From: Pseudomonadota bacterium
GTDB lineage: Bacteria; Pseudomonadota; Alphaproteobacteria; Rhizobiales; Aestuariivirgaceae
DNA: 34,821 bases
Direction of reading: 5' to 3'
Assembly (NCBI GenBank): GCA_963205315.1
Contig: CAUJIO010000007.1
Span: 1 to 34,821 of the forward strand
Position 1 is the stretch's first letter. Every line of letters begins with the position of its first letter. Positions 3,060 to 19,700 of the stretch are shown piece by piece. The position numbers and the translations under genes were made by a program. Under the pieces are notes generated by a model. The model was given only the letters and a program-made list of their open reading frames with translations. It did no database searches and was not told the DNA's origin.

Positions 3060-6017
3060 ATGTCTCACACATCCTCGCTCAAAGCCGGTGACCATCTCTA
3101 CCTGATCGATGGATCGGGTTATATTTTCCGCGCCTATCACGCGCTGCCGCCGTTGACGCGCAAGTCCGACGGGCTGCCGGTCGGCGCCGTGCAGGGTTTC
3201 TGCAACATGCTGTGGAAGCTGTTGAAGGAGACCAATTCCGGACAGAAGCCGACGCATCTGGCGGTGATCTTCGACAAGTCGTCGAAGACGTTCAGGAATG
3301 ACATCTACCCCGAATACAAGGCCCACCGGCCGGAACCGCCGGCTGATCTGCGGCCGCAGTTCGGGCTCATCAAGCTGGCGACACGCGCCTTCAACGTGCC
3401 GGCGATCGAGCAGGACAACTATGAGGCCGACGATCTCATCGCCACCTATGCCAGGCAGGCGGTGGAAGCCGGAGCCACCTGCCGTATCGTCTCCTCGGAC
3501 AAGGATCTGATGCAATTGATCCGCCCCGGCGTTGCCCTTTACGACACGATGAAGGACCGCGAGGTCGGCGAGCCCGAGGTCTTCGAGAAATTTGGTGTGA
3601 CGCCGGACAAGGTCATCGACATCCAGTCGCTGGCCGGTGACTCGGTTGACAATGTCCCGGGCGTGCCGGGCATCGGCGTCAAGACCGCGGCCCAGCTCAT
3701 CACCGAATATGGCGATCTCGAAACGTTGCTGGCGAAGGCCTCCGGGATCAAGCAACAGAAGCGTCGCGAGAATCTGATTCAGTTCGCCGAGCAGGCCCGC
3801 ATCTCGAAGCGGCTGGTAACACTCGACGAGCATGTGCCGGTGGAACATGACGTGGGCAGCTTCGCCGTCGATTCACCAAAGCCGATGCATCTCATTGGTT
3901 TCCTCAAGGCGCTGGAATTCACCAGTTTCACGCGCAAGGTCGCGGGCGAACTTGACTGCGACGCCGGCGCGATCGAACCGGTTCCGGTGGAAGTGAAGTT
4001 CTGGCCGCCGGAGGGCGAGGAGGCAGGAGCGGCAACGACCGAGAGTCGTCGTGACCGGGCAACGTCCCAGTCATCGGCCGAAGAGCCAAAGCCGATGACG
4101 GATGCCCGGCACAAGACCGGGCATGACGCAACGACGGGGAACCACGACGACGCGTTATTGAAGCTACCCATCGATCACGCCGCTTACGAAACCGTCACCA
4201 CGCTTGACGCTCTCCGCCATTGGATCGGCTCGGCCTATGAGCGCGGCTACATTGCGGTCGACACCGAGACCGATGCGCTCGATTCGATGCAGGCCAATCT
4301 CGTTGGCGTGTCGCTGGCGACCGAGCCGGGCAAGGCCTGTTACATTCCGTTGGCCCACAAGGCGTCGGGCGGCGGCCTCTTCGGCGGTGATCTGCTTGAC
4401 GGCCAGATTGCGCGCGATGCGGCCATTGCCGCACTAAAGCCCCTGCTGGAAGATCCCTCGATCCTGAAGATCGGCCAGAATCTCAAATATGATATCGAGG
4501 TGCTGAAGCGCTACAACATCGACGTGGCTCCGCTCGATGACACCATGCTGATGTCCTACGTGCTGGAATCGGGCGATGTCGGTCACGGCATGGATGAACT
4601 TTCCCTGCGTCACCTGAACCACAAGTGCATTTCGTTCAAGGACGTTGCTGGCTCCGGAAAATCGATGATCAGCTTCGATCAGGTGCCGGTCGATCGCGCG
4701 ACGCAATATGCAGCCGAGGATGCCGACGTCACTTTGCGGCTGTGGCTGCTGCTGAAGCCGCGTCTCGCGCAGATCGGCAAGCGGACTGTTTATGAAACGC
4801 TGGAGCGTCCGATGGTGCGCGTGCTGGCGGCGATGGAGATGGAGGGCATCCTCATCGATCCCGATTTGTTGAAGCGGCTGTCGAACGATCTCGCGTCCGC
4901 TGCCGCCGAAATCGAGAAGCACGTCTATGAACTGGCTGGCGAGCGCTTCAACATCGGTTCACCGAAACAGCTGGGCGACATCCTGTTTGGCCGCATGGGA
5001 TTGCCGGGTGGCCGCAAGACCGCGACCGGAGCCTGGAGCACCGATTCCGATGCGCTGGAAGATCTCGCGTCGCAAGGCATCGAGCTGGCGCGCCGGGTGG
5101 TCGACTGGCGTCAGCTGTCGAAGCTCCGCTCAACGTATACCGACGCATTGCCGGGTTACATCAATCCGGCGACGGGCCGCGTTCACACGTCTTACTCATT
5201 GGCCGCCACCTCGACCGGGCGCTTGTCCTCCACCGAACCCAACCTGCAGAACATTCCGGTACGCACGGAGGAAGGCCGCAAGATCCGCACCGCCTTCATT
5301 GCTCCTCAAGGTTCCAAGCTGATCAGCGCCGATTACAGCCAGATCGAGTTGCGCGTGCTGGCGCATGTGGCGGATATTCCGCAACTGAAGAAGGCCTTTG
5401 CCGATGGCCTCGACATTCATGCCATGACGGCATCCGAAATGTTCGGCGTTCCGATTGCCGGCATGGACCCGATGGTCCGGCGCCGCGCCAAGGCGATCAA
5501 CTTCGGCATCATCTATGGCATCTCGGCTTTCGGGCTGGCGAACCAGCTGTCGATATCGCGTGAAGAGGCGGGCGAATACATCAAGACATATTTCAAGCGC
5601 TTTCCCGGCATCCGCGAGTACATGGAGACAACCAAGCAGGCGGCGCGCGACAATGGCTATGTCGAAACCATCTTCGGCCGGCGCTGCCACTTCCCGCGCA
5701 TCAAGTCGCCCAATCCCTCGGAGCGCGCCTTTCTCGAGCGCGCCGCCATCAACGCCCCCATACAGGGAGCGGCCGCCGACATCATCCGCCGCGCCATGGT
5801 GCGCATGCCGGGCGCGCTTGCGGAAGCCGGCGTCAAGGCACGCATGCTGCTGCAGGTGCATGACGAACTGATCTTCGAGACAGTGGACGCCGATGTCGAA
5901 GAGACCAAGGATATCGTCAAGCGCGTGATGATCGCGGCACCTGAACCCGCTGTGAAACTGAGCGTGCCGCTTCAGGTGGATGCCCGTGCCGCGAAAAACT
6001 GGGAGGAGGCGCATTGA
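3060..6017 (+). CDS. polA: DNA polymerase I
   Basis: This 985-residue polymerase acts in Okazaki-fragment maturation and excision repair. Its N-terminal 5'-3' exonuclease begins LYLIDGSGYIFRAYHALPPL and includes DNYEADDLIA and SLAGDSVDNVPGVPGIG. The proofreading domain keeps its metal ligands (Asp401 and Glu403 in AVDTETDAL), unlike Taq polymerase, so it is probably active. The polymerase domain has motif A with Asp758 (SADYSQIELRVL), the O-helix block RRRAKAINFGIIYG and motif C with Asp935 (QVHDELIFE). It is longer than the roughly 930 residues of E. coli PolA, partly because the linker between the two exonuclease domains carries a palindromic repeat insertion (codons 325-357). The start at 3060 has only a weak ribosome site. 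polA is convergent with selO, 48 bp away. Confidence 0.97.
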   Translation: MSHTSSLKAGDHLYLIDGSGYIFRAYHALPPLTRKSDGLPVGAVQGFCNMLWKLLKETNSGQKPTHLAVIFDKSSKTFRNDIYPEYKAHRPEPPADLRPQFGLIKLATRAFNVPAIEQDNYEADDLIATYARQAVEAGATCRIVSSDKDLMQLIRPGVALYDTMKDREVGEPEVFEKFGVTPDKVIDIQSLAGDSVDNVPGVPGIGVKTAAQLITEYGDLETLLAKASGIKQQKRRENLIQFAEQARISKRLVTLDEHVPVEHDVGSFAVDSPKPMHLIGFLKALEFTSFTRKVAGELDCDAGAIEPVPVEVKFWPPEGEEAGAATTESRRDRATSQSSAEEPKPMTDARHKTGHDATTGNHDDALLKLPIDHAAYETVTTLDALRHWIGSAYERGYIAVDTETDALDSMQANLVGVSLATEPGKACYIPLAHKASGGGLFGGDLLDGQIARDAAIAALKPLLEDPSILKIGQNLKYDIEVLKRYNIDVAPLDDTMLMSYVLESGDVGHGMDELSLRHLNHKCISFKDVAGSGKSMISFDQVPVDRATQYAAEDADVTLRLWLLLKPRLAQIGKRTVYETLERPMVRVLAAMEMEGILIDPDLLKRLSNDLASAAAEIEKHVYELAGERFNIGSPKQLGDILFGRMGLPGGRKTATGAWSTDSDALEDLASQGIELARRVVDWRQLSKLRSTYTDALPGYINPATGRVHTSYSLAATSTGRLSSTEPNLQNIPVRTEEGRKIRTAFIAPQGSKLISADYSQIELRVLAHVADIPQLKKAFADGLDIHAMTASEMFGVPIAGMDPMVRRRAKAINFGIIYGISAFGLANQLSISREEAGEYIKTYFKRFPGIREYMETTKQAARDNGYVETIFGRRCHFPRIKSPNPSERAFLERAAINAPIQGAAADIIRRAMVRMPGALAEAGVKARMLLQVHDELIFETVDADVEETKDIVKRVMIAAPEPAVKLSVPLQVDARAAKNWEEAH
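4032..4135 (+). repeat. Palindromic mosaic repeat inserted in frame within polA
   Basis: About 96 bp (32 codons) are bounded by an 8-bp direct repeat GCAACGAC at 4032-4039 and 4128-4135, each encoding Ala-Thr-Thr in frame. Inside are three palindromic modules. The first is an imperfect one at 4051-4074 (GTGACCGGG...CCCAGTCAT). The second has arms GTCATCGGC (4070-4078) and GCCGATGAC (4091-4099). The third is GGATGCCCGG...CCGGGCATGACG at 4100-4128. An outer CGTCGT (4047-4052) pairs with ACGACG (4131-4136). The encoded peptide is charged and low complexity and falls in the linker between the 5'-3' and 3'-5' exonuclease domains. The last module resembles the extragenic palindrome common in Rhizobiales genomes. 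The insertion interpretation is inferred; the repeats are seen directly. Confidence 0.75.
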
Positions 6018-16752: not shown

Positions 16753-19700
16753 GCTTCAATGCCCAGGCCAGCCTCAGGCAGTTGCAGGCATCCGATCCCG
16801 CCACAACCGTCTGGGTGAATGCCAATGCCGGGTCGGGCAAGACCCATGTGCTGGTCGACCGCGTCATCCGCCTGATGCTTGGTGGTACCGATCCCTCGCG
16901 CATCATGTGTCTCACTTTCACCAAGGCGGCGGCCGCCGAAATGGCCAATCGCCTGTTCGAACGGCTGAGCACGTGGATCGTCATCGACGACGGCCAGTTG
17001 ACTGGCCTCTTGGCGAAGCTCGACGTCAACAACCCCCATGCCACAACACTTGAGCGCGCGCGCCAGCTCTTTACCCGCGCGCTCGAGACGCCGGGCGGCC
17101 TGAAGATCCAGACCATCCACGCCTTCTGCGAGCGCCTGTTGCAGCTGTTTCCGGTGGAGGCTGGAATCGTGCCGCATTTCACCACGCTGGACGAGCGCCA
17201 GGCCAAGGAGACGCTGCAGCAGGCGCGTGACGCCGTTCTGAGCCGTGCCCAGGCTGATGAGGCGGCGGATTTTGGCATTGCACTGGGCGACATTGCCTCC
17301 CGCCTGCAGGCCGACGCCTTCGACGCGCTGCTCAACACGCTGCTGGCAAAGCGATCCTCTTTGCATGGTTCATTCGATCCCGAGACCGGGTTGATGTCGA
17401 CCGAAGCATTGCTGCGCCATCAGCTCGGCCTTGCGCCCGGTGTGACGGCGGAGACTGTGCGGGCAACGTGCACAGCCGATGCTGCGCGCTACGGTGAACT
17501 CGTGGCGGCACTTGCAACCGGAACCAAAGCCGAAGGTGAACGCGCGGCCGAAATCCGTAACGTCCTGCGGGATGCCGGCAGCAACCTGTTCTCACTCGAG
17601 AAAATTCTGCTGACGGTGGAACGCGAACCCCGCAAGACGGTGGCCAACAAGCCGACGATGCAGCGGTTTCCCTGGATCGAGGACTTCATCAAGGCAGACC
17701 AGAAGCGGCTGTGCGACGCACTGGGCCGCCTCGGCGATCTCGACTGCATCGCGGCGACGCTCTCAGCACTCCGCCTGGCCGGTGCCATCGTGAGTGAATA
17801 CGAAGCAGTGAAGCGGCGTCAGGGATGCTACGACTTCGACGACCTCATCATCAAGACAAGCGAGTTGCTGCAGGAACGGCCGGATGCTGCATGGGTACTC
17901 TACAAGCTCGATGGCGGCATCGAGCACCTGCTGGTCGACGAGGCGCAGGATACCAGCCCGGCGCAGTGGGATATCATCCGTGCACTGACGGATGAGTTCT
18001 TCGCCGGCGAGGGCCGTCACGGATCAAAGTCCCGCACGGTGTTCGTGGTCGGCGATCGAAAGCAATCGATCTACTCGTTTCAGGGTGCGGACCCGGATAT
18101 CTTCGAAACGGTATACGAAAGCTACAAGGAGCTGGTGAGTGGTGCCGGCGGCGAGTTCCGTCCCGTGGATCTCACCGTGTCATTCCGGTCTGCACCGCAA
18201 ATTCTCGATGCCGTCGACCGTGTCTTCAAGCGGGACTCAGCTGCACGCAGCGGCCTTGACGGCGTGATTGAGCGCGACTGGGCCCATCAGTCCAACCGGC
18301 TCGGCGACAAGGGCACGGTCGAGGTCTGGGATCTGATCGAGCCACTGGAGGCGCCGCCGCAGGAACCATGGGACGTTCCAGTTGACCGCGAACCAGCCCA
18401 CGCCCCGGCCCGCCGCCTGGCAAGCCTCCTGGCCAGTACCATCAAGTCATGGATTGGTCGCCGTGATCTGCCTGCGCAAAAACGCGCCGTCGAGCCCGGC
18501 GATATCCTGATCCTCGTTCGCCAGCGCAACGTGTTCTTCGACGCGATGATCCGCGCCCTGTGGAGCGAATGCGTGCCGGTCGCTGGCGCCGACCGCCTGA
18601 AGCTTGGCCAGAACATCGCCGTCCTCGATCTCATGGCGATGGCGCAATTCTGCATCATGCCGGAGGATGATCACGCACTGGCGTGTCTGTTGAAGAGCCC
18701 GCTGCTGCCGCAGCCCTTGTCGGAAGACGATTTGTTGTCGGTTGCTGCAGATCGCAAGGGCACACTGTGGCAGAGCCTGAAGGAGCGGAGCGAGCCTGTA
18801 TTCACCGCGGCTGTCCTCGAACTGGCACCGCGCATCGCAGCTGCACCTGGCGCTCGTCCGTTCGAGTTTTTTTCCAACCTGTTGCAGCTCTCGCGCCTGC
18901 GCTTCCTCAGCCGCCTCGGCAGCGAAGCCAACGATGCGATCGATGCGCTGCTCGATCTGGCGCTCGACTATGAACAGGCCAACGGCACGTCGCTGACGGG
19001 CTTCGTCAACTGGTTCGCGGCTGGTGACGTCGAGATCAAGCGCAACATGGAGAAGGGCAAGGGTGAAGTCCGCATCATGACGGTGCACGGCGCCAAAGGC
19101 CTTGAAGCGCCGATCGTCATCTTGCCGGATACAACGACCGCCGCCGATGCCAAGCCGGCATCACTCATCTTCCTGCCGGCCGGCAATTCCAATGCCCGCG
19201 TGCCGCTCTGGCTGGTGCCGAAGAACTTCGACTCGGATCGCATCCGCACGCTGAAAGACAACGAGAAGGACAGCCAGACGGCGGAACACCGGCGCCTGCT
19301 TTATGTGGCGATGACACGGGCGCAAGACGAACTCTACGTCTGCGGATACCGGGGGGCCCGCGATGTTGCCGATCATTGCTGGTACAATACGGTCCGCAGC
19401 GAGCTGGAGAAACATCCTGACGCGCAGAAGATCGAACAGCCCGAGGGCTTCCGCATCGGCGCACCCCCTGGCTTCGGCGCGGCTCCCGCCACCAGCGCGC
19501 CCGCCCCTGTTCCGTTGCCGGACTGGATCAACACGCCCATCGGCCAGACAGCAGCAGGTCCGCCCGCCGGCAAGCCGCCTCAACCGAAACGCAACCCCGC
19601 TTATGTGGCACAGGGCATTCTGATCCACCGCATCCTGCAGCAATTGCCCGACCGGCCAGAGGCGGAGTGGCCGGCCTACATTGCCCAGAAGGTCGCTCAG

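Follow-up and report, generated by a model that had tools for sequence, protein, structure and literature searches.

The question raised by this locus is how a palindrome-rich segment came to lie, in frame, inside the gene for DNA polymerase I (polA). The locus is part of a 34,821-nt stretch, the window, from a member of the alphaproteobacterial family Aestuariivirgaceae (contig CAUJIO010000007.1, assembly GCA_963205315.1). The genome of the window is called G000; other genomes have G-numbers and fetched loci have L-numbers. The segment is a dimer of CGTC-tagged repetitive extragenic palindrome (REP) modules, a new member of a known alphaproteobacterial superfamily, and is very probably a passenger tolerated in a flexible, disordered linker of the PolA protein.

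The element in the PolA linker

The full-length polA gene is found at 3060–6017 on the + strand. Its open reading frame (ORF) encodes 985 residues and scores above the cut-off for both NCBIfam PRK05755 and TIGR00593, with four Pfam domains: 5_3_exonuc_N, 5_3_exonuc, DNA_pol_A_exo1 and DNA_pol_A. Since 5_3_exonuc (residues 180–274) ends at residue 274 and DNA_pol_A_exo1 (residues 376–569) starts at residue 376, the palindromic segment is assigned to the linker between these domains. An AlphaFold2 model, for which 33 PolA sequences were aligned, gave residues 320–359 (4017–4136, + strand) a predicted local distance difference test score (pLDDT) below 50, indicating a disordered linker; no other run longer than four residues fell under this value, and the mean for the whole model was 84.8.

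The original prediction, made from the sequence alone, described a multi-palindrome segment flanked by an 8-bp direct repeat and lying in frame in this linker. The ORF, the fold and the Pfam matches confirmed the description, and the in-frame palindromic segment is real. The predicted length of 96 bp is the spacing of the two direct-repeat copies; the palindromic element proper is 82 bp (4047–4128) and is not cleanly bracketed by them. It encodes PolA residues 330–356 plus the first base of codon 357, in frame.

The element was recognized as a head-to-head dimer by a structural descriptor scan, by its fold and by an architecture common to dimers elsewhere in G000 and in sister genomes. Module 1 (4047–4074, + strand) has one mismatch, one wobble and a 6-nt loop; its stem starts with GT in the window. 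In G014 the stem starts with AT, and all 9 bp are perfectly paired there as well as in G025 and G007. A 27-bp spacer (4075–4101) is followed by module 2 (4102–4128, − strand), which has the tag CGTC, a 9-bp stem and a 5-nt loop; similar cores occur on contigs C6, C110 and C102 of G000. The module 2 stem, ATGCCCGGT, with one wobble, has the length of 8–9 bp and the A-T/T-A first pairs expected of CGTC-tagged REPs. The unpaired CGTC tag is found at 4047–4050 on the + strand and at 4125–4128 when read on the − strand.

Positions 4030–4140 folded at −47.5 kcal/mol, compared to a mean of −37.2 for shuffled sequences (z = −3.0), and one of 200 shuffles was equally good. The descriptor, which consists of a tag (CGTC, TGTC or CCTC), an 8–9 bp stem and a 3–7 nt loop, gave three modules in the 34.8-kb window: the two linker modules and a CCTC-tagged match at 17919–17943. 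Twenty simulated windows with the same dinucleotide composition had a mean of 0.5 matches.

Dispersed copies and known repeat systems

When a 121-base query was run against G000 by BLAST, 23 matches were returned at E values up to 10, of which none except the self match was longer than 34 bp; the best other copies matched over 26–31 bp. By plain similarity, then, the result came near to what the original prediction had named as grounds for rejecting it, namely the lack of any copy matching beyond a short core. At the level of architecture, copies were found, related by the order GTCAT–hairpin–ATC, spacer, GAT–hairpin–ATGAC. Exact modules of the window type (class A) numbered seven in G000, including its own, 14 in G014, seven in G006 and 0–3 in each of the other 34 genomes of the genus. 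Modules of another CGTC type (class B) were present in 24 of the 37 genus genomes, with two in G000 and a maximum of 49 in G027. The reversed control patterns gave no match for either class, in all 37 genomes for class A. The assignment to a rhizobial type of extragenic palindrome held up: the repeat is dispersed in G000 and sits in frame in polA as the Rickettsia palindromic elements (RPEs) do in their genes.

A census of elements was assembled from three sets: 80 from loci mostly of genomes with a repeat in polA, 44 from G001, G013 and G007, and 81 from G034, G035, G036 and G028, for a total of 205. The sets are incomplete lists for these genomes; the 80 are those obtained when CCGG was demanded in the stem. 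The census covers CGTC and TGTC tags and misses CATC-tagged copies, found in G025 and G007, including the polA copy of G007 itself, a genome of the second set. The elements are partly non-independent: 40-bp flanks are common to the members of five pairs, four of them in G013 alone and the fifth linking G036 with G034. A + module followed by a − module, as in the window, was found in 52 of the 205 elements (35/80, 10/44 and 7/81 by set), two of which represent one hairpin each, recognized on both strands; the remaining 43 of the 45 in the first two sets span 60–105 bp. Other orders were rare among elements with two or more modules (two −+ and one +++). Under the strict descriptor, which misses decayed partners, 150 of the 205 were single modules. 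Two further observations concern the placement of REPs. In G035 (C30:3345) and G034 (C78:7010), both with a repeat-free PolA linker, REP modules are found shortly downstream of polA. At contig ends of G013 (L306, L308, L310 and L311), REPs have identical 40-bp flanks, which points to a longer repeat at which the assembly broke off.

CGTC-tagged REPs were described by Di Nocera, De Gregorio and Rocco in 2013 as families CGTC-1 to CGTC-4 (PMC3733652). They consist of the tag, an 8–9 bp stem starting with A-T and a loop of 4–5 nt, have a three-base tail that is mostly CCA, form mostly head-to-head dimers, occur mainly in alphaproteobacteria and have no transposase (PMC3733652). More than half of the in-frame copies are dimers or groups coding for 20–30 residues (PMC3733652). 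DNA polymerase I and DnaE2 are named among the decorated proteins, within a bias toward replication and repair genes, and two readings are offered: neutrality in flexible linkers, or altered repair activity with a mutator idea (PMC3733652). Within a functional category the insertion sites differ, except in recB of two Xanthomonas (PMC3733652).

The window element agrees with this description in its CGTC tag, the AT-starting 8–9 bp stem and loop of module 2, head-to-head dimer, alphaproteobacterial host, lack of a known transposase for the family, in-frame intragenic copies, length of 20–30 residues and the decoration of DNA polymerase I and DnaE2. It differs in that module 1 is imperfect with a 6-nt loop and the tails are not CCA. 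In addition, the genus elements are mostly single modules under the strict descriptor, and one PolA linker has been struck in several species, whereas the published sites within a functional category mostly differ.

The original prediction had proposed that the polA insertion was an independent parallel to the RPEs. This does not hold, as RPE-4 and RPE-6 of Rickettsia conorii have been placed in the same CGTC-tagged REP superfamily (PMC3733652). In Rickettsia, different RPE types occupy one site in different species, and whether such sites are hot spots or single, diverged old insertions is discussed (PMC3767692); the PolA linker poses this question too. Like RPE-4, -6 and -7, the genus elements are found in frame in exposed protein segments, have an ATGAC motif, include several repeat types at one site in different species and hit repair and replication genes (PMC3767692, PMC3733652). 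They differ in their hosts. The gene table for RPE-4, -6 and -7 names dnaE, a recB-family gene and uvrC among others, and not polA (PMC3767692), so that an RPE in Rickettsia polA, mentioned in the original prediction, was not confirmed. The relation to RPEs is taken from PMC3733652. With GTAG-REPs and BIMEs, the elements share short tagged hairpins, head-to-head dimers and intragenic copies (see PMC3733652). Unlike those mobilized by RAYT, the window element has the tag CGTC, not GTAG, and G000 has no Y1 transposase (PF01797). Rhizobium-specific intergenic mosaic elements (RIMEs) are two-palindrome intergenic elements of about 100 bp found in rhizobia. The likeness to the window element would lie in this two-palindrome architecture.

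The PolA linker in related species

PolA matches were found in all 37 genus genomes, and the linker DNA was read for 36 of them (30 loci and six further genomes; the linker of G028 was not recovered). The polA gene of G005 shifts frame in the linker region and was scanned by the strict descriptor only. Seven of the 36 carried a recognized repeat in the linker: a class A dimer in G000, G014, G025 and G007, a class B dimer in G004 and G027, and a different palindrome in G006. The linker thus tolerates palindromic repeats, as several related species carry them.

The four class A dimers are of one subtype; between their tags they aligned gap-free, and all share the position and the frame. The damage in G014 affects module 2 and spares module 1, the opposite of the window, and the G025 and G007 copies are both CATC-tagged. 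The class B repeats are multicopy in both genomes that have them in polA. The G006 palindrome had nine matches in G006, including itself, 13 in G014 and three in G000; no match came from G008, G010 or G031. Long palindromes also occupy the PolA linker of two loci from outside the genus, L059 and L064; a query derived from L064 gave at least eight matches in the L064 genome, two or more being the query locus itself, and at least 30 in the genome of L059, with 40 of 90 candidates scored.

A set of 110 PolA genes was scanned, made up of the 30 genus loci and 80 others; at least four species contribute two entries each, whose linkers are identical. The strict descriptor gave 14 matches in this set. 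Seven, from four genomes, were in the linker, which makes up 4.5% of the bases, and these were the only ones with CCGG stems; permitting a CATC tag brought in two more carriers, G025 and G007. The seven matches elsewhere in polA (L042, L047, L064, L070, L089, L090 and L094) were rejected as coincidences in coding motifs: five are CCTC-tagged, four of them in one recurring motif, and two represent one CGTC-tagged motif. A ranking by folding energy, which is blind to repeat family, placed seven repeat-bearing linkers (L117, L064, L105, L112, L115, L059 and L104) among the top nine of 110; no repeat was recognized in the remaining ones, L057 and L107. The G019 locus (L127) resembled a decayed repeat by eye, failed the descriptor and was not counted. 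An order-wide pattern for a repeat behind a WPP motif hit 152 of 397 genomes among the matches listed; it was too loose and was not used.

In the open-licence literature, we found no published account of a single PolA linker being used again and again by repeats of different types. What is new here is a single linker that is free of repeats in most species of a genus and has one of three repeat types in seven. The results also connect the palindromes that lie in frame in Rickettsia genes with a superfamily that occurs in free-living Hyphomicrobiales. Material from this genus would let insertions be timed and the decay or persistence of hairpins followed, and would allow a test for altered behavior of repair polymerases that carry repeats, as PolA and DnaE2 do in one genome, an idea that dates from 2013 (PMC3733652).

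Tolerance, selection or mobilization

The reading that we strongly favor is that the dimer is a tolerated passenger. A CGTC-tagged REP dimer would have entered the linker in frame, in the ancestor of the window species and G014 or earlier, and would have been translated as about 27 linker residues. The element presumably persists because the linker that joins the 5′ nuclease part to the Klenow part varies freely and can take up added residues; insertions out of frame or in folded parts would be lost. A non-autonomous, dispersed hairpin repeat of this kind, once landed, would mostly drift, and other repeats would have entered the linker in other species. This reading is favored because two copies are damaged and because 29 of the 36 genus members have no recognized linker repeat. 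We infer that the element was inserted and did not build up gradually, that it is nearly neutral and that some activity mobilizes it.

Several observations weigh against it. The published CGTC-REP consensus is matched neither by the module tails, CCG and CGG, nor by the loop of module 1, which has 6 nt. Both stems are perfect in G025, the G007 copy has a single wobble, and the module 2 stems of these copies show paired changes relative to G000; such stems are compatible with separate insertions or with some upkeep, and leave room for upkeep or recent arrival. Nor was a clean empty site found. The original prediction had envisaged relatives lacking just 32 residues, with a single Ala-Thr-Thr in their place, but the linker is highly variable, and near relatives without a repeat have linkers whose sequences show no relationship; those of L106–L111 are A/P-rich and only nine residues shorter. 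The clustering of insertions in polA and dnaE2, described below, exceeds what plain tolerance obviously predicts. Lastly, on a tree of 35 genus PolA protein rows with the linker removed, the class A carriers do not form one clade; there are four label changes, at least two of them forced by well-supported branches.

The same tree bears on the number of insertions. All seven linker-repeat carriers fall inside one well-supported group of 17 rows. Within the tree, G027, which carries class B, groups with G025 and G007; the repeat-free G015 lies just outside this group and G004 further out, and G000 splits off before a group of G014 and a repeat-free clade (support 92/86). As the class A carriers are scattered in this way, a single origin would require several losses. 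Either an old class A insertion may have been repeatedly lost or overwritten, or the class A subtype may have entered twice. We count three to five insertions in the linker of the genus, comprising one or two of class A, one or two of class B and one of the other repeat, and at least one further insertion outside the genus.

The census was used to ask how often elements lie inside genes. An element was called genic from the coding potential of the frame spanning it (best window on each side; threshold 0.05 or 0), followed by Pfam searches on the candidates; gene ends, with fewer than 20 codons on one side, were not scored as genic. Seven of the 205 elements were inside genes: four in polA (G000, G014, G004 and G027), two in dnaE2 (G000 and G014) and one in an E2-type gene of G014. 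The first set was picked because polA carried a repeat, so the share of polA is biased, while dnaE2 and the E2-type gene surfaced unsought. None of the 125 elements in the second and third sets was genic; three candidates had no Pfam match. Spanning ORFs at L167, L003, L309, L403 and L407 had no Pfam family and antisense-like frames and were dropped as non-genic. A hairpin in L154 (position 2536), in a frame that presumably resembles valyl-tRNA synthetase, arose by chance and was not counted.

The gene dnaE2 encodes an error-prone polymerase. Its copy in G000 has an in-frame REP dimer (L002, 1457–1527; contig C6, about 17116–17186), and dnaE2 of G014 (L182/L264) has one at the identical site; the dimer is absent from L253–L259. 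At a second site, dnaE2 of G014 (L264) and G031 (L267) has in-frame, palindrome-rich insertions with CCTCCCC/GGGGAGG runs. The E2-type gene (L149, 955–2433) encodes a protein that resembles acetoin dehydrogenase E2 and ends in an alpha/beta hydrolase part; a class B REP occupies its linker between the lipoyl domain and the E3-binding domain.

It is conceivable, though unlikely, that the PolA and DnaE2 linkers are true hot spots, to which REP insertion is steered or in which insertions are selected for altered polymerase behavior; different types of repeat would then have made use of these linkers independently, with the hairpins partly kept. Somewhat less probable still is that the repeat is selected for a role in polA at the RNA or DNA level, its hairpins pausing ribosomes between domains or steering mRNA processing, or its residues tuning the polymerase. 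The position of repeats at the junction of two enzyme halves in seven genus members would fit such a role, as would the perfect or nearly perfect stems of G025 and G007 with their paired changes. Furthermore, the only other gene with more than one copy, dnaE2, also encodes a repair polymerase, and a bias toward replication and repair genes is reported in PMC3733652. Against this, the hairpins of G000 and G014 are damaged, at different modules, the linker is occupied by differing repeat types, and 29 of 36 genus members do without a recognized one.

A third possibility, which we regard as very improbable, is a miniature transposon, either a MITE or a RAYT-mobilized REP, that made an 8-bp target duplication. 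It would account for the inverted-repeat architecture and for the nearby direct repeat GCAACGAC, the two copies of which (4032–4039 and 4128–4135, both on the + strand) are 96 bp apart and codon-aligned in polA. Among random 82-bp segments of the window, only 202 of 34,691 had a word of at least 8 bases common to their 20-bp flanks. However, the left copy is 7 bp outside the element, the right copy overlaps its last base, and the repeat is missing at the alignable insertion of the nearest relative, G014. A flank test on 43 elements with complete flanks (41 dimers and two single hairpins read on both strands) found three with a word of at least 6 bases common to the 20-bp flanks, compared to 1.4 from shuffled pairings, and no abutting duplication of more than 3 bp. 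Because the repeat does not abut the element, G014 lacks it and the 43 elements show no excess, a target duplication, as originally suggested, is judged improbable, and the 8-bp repeat is probably a coincidence. The tag is CGTC rather than GTAG. The Y1 transposase PF01797, the only transposase family sought, was absent from G000, G014, G004, G027, G025 and G007; it was present in seven of the 37 genus genomes, including G006.

That the segment is ordinary linker sequence with chance palindromes, as a fast-evolving linker and the lack of any other BLAST match above 34 bp in G000 might suggest, is barely credible, given that the tagged two-module architecture recurs in the genus when reversed patterns give nothing, that simulated windows average only 0.5 descriptor matches, and that a dimer of the same kind is found in dnaE2 of G000.

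Three minor observations concern polA in other records. In L040, L054 and L056 (Phyllobacterium and Brucella-like records), the PolA linker has low-complexity Val/Thr/Glu-rich runs, another mode of linker variation. The linker of L055, a record titled Bacillus subtilis SK6B4, is near that of Pseudochrobactrum, perhaps reflecting a mislabelled or contaminated assembly. In L420 (G025), L421 (G018) and L422 (G003), about 220–280 bp of extra DNA interrupts the PolA match to the window near residues 224–244, at the end of the 5′ nuclease domain.

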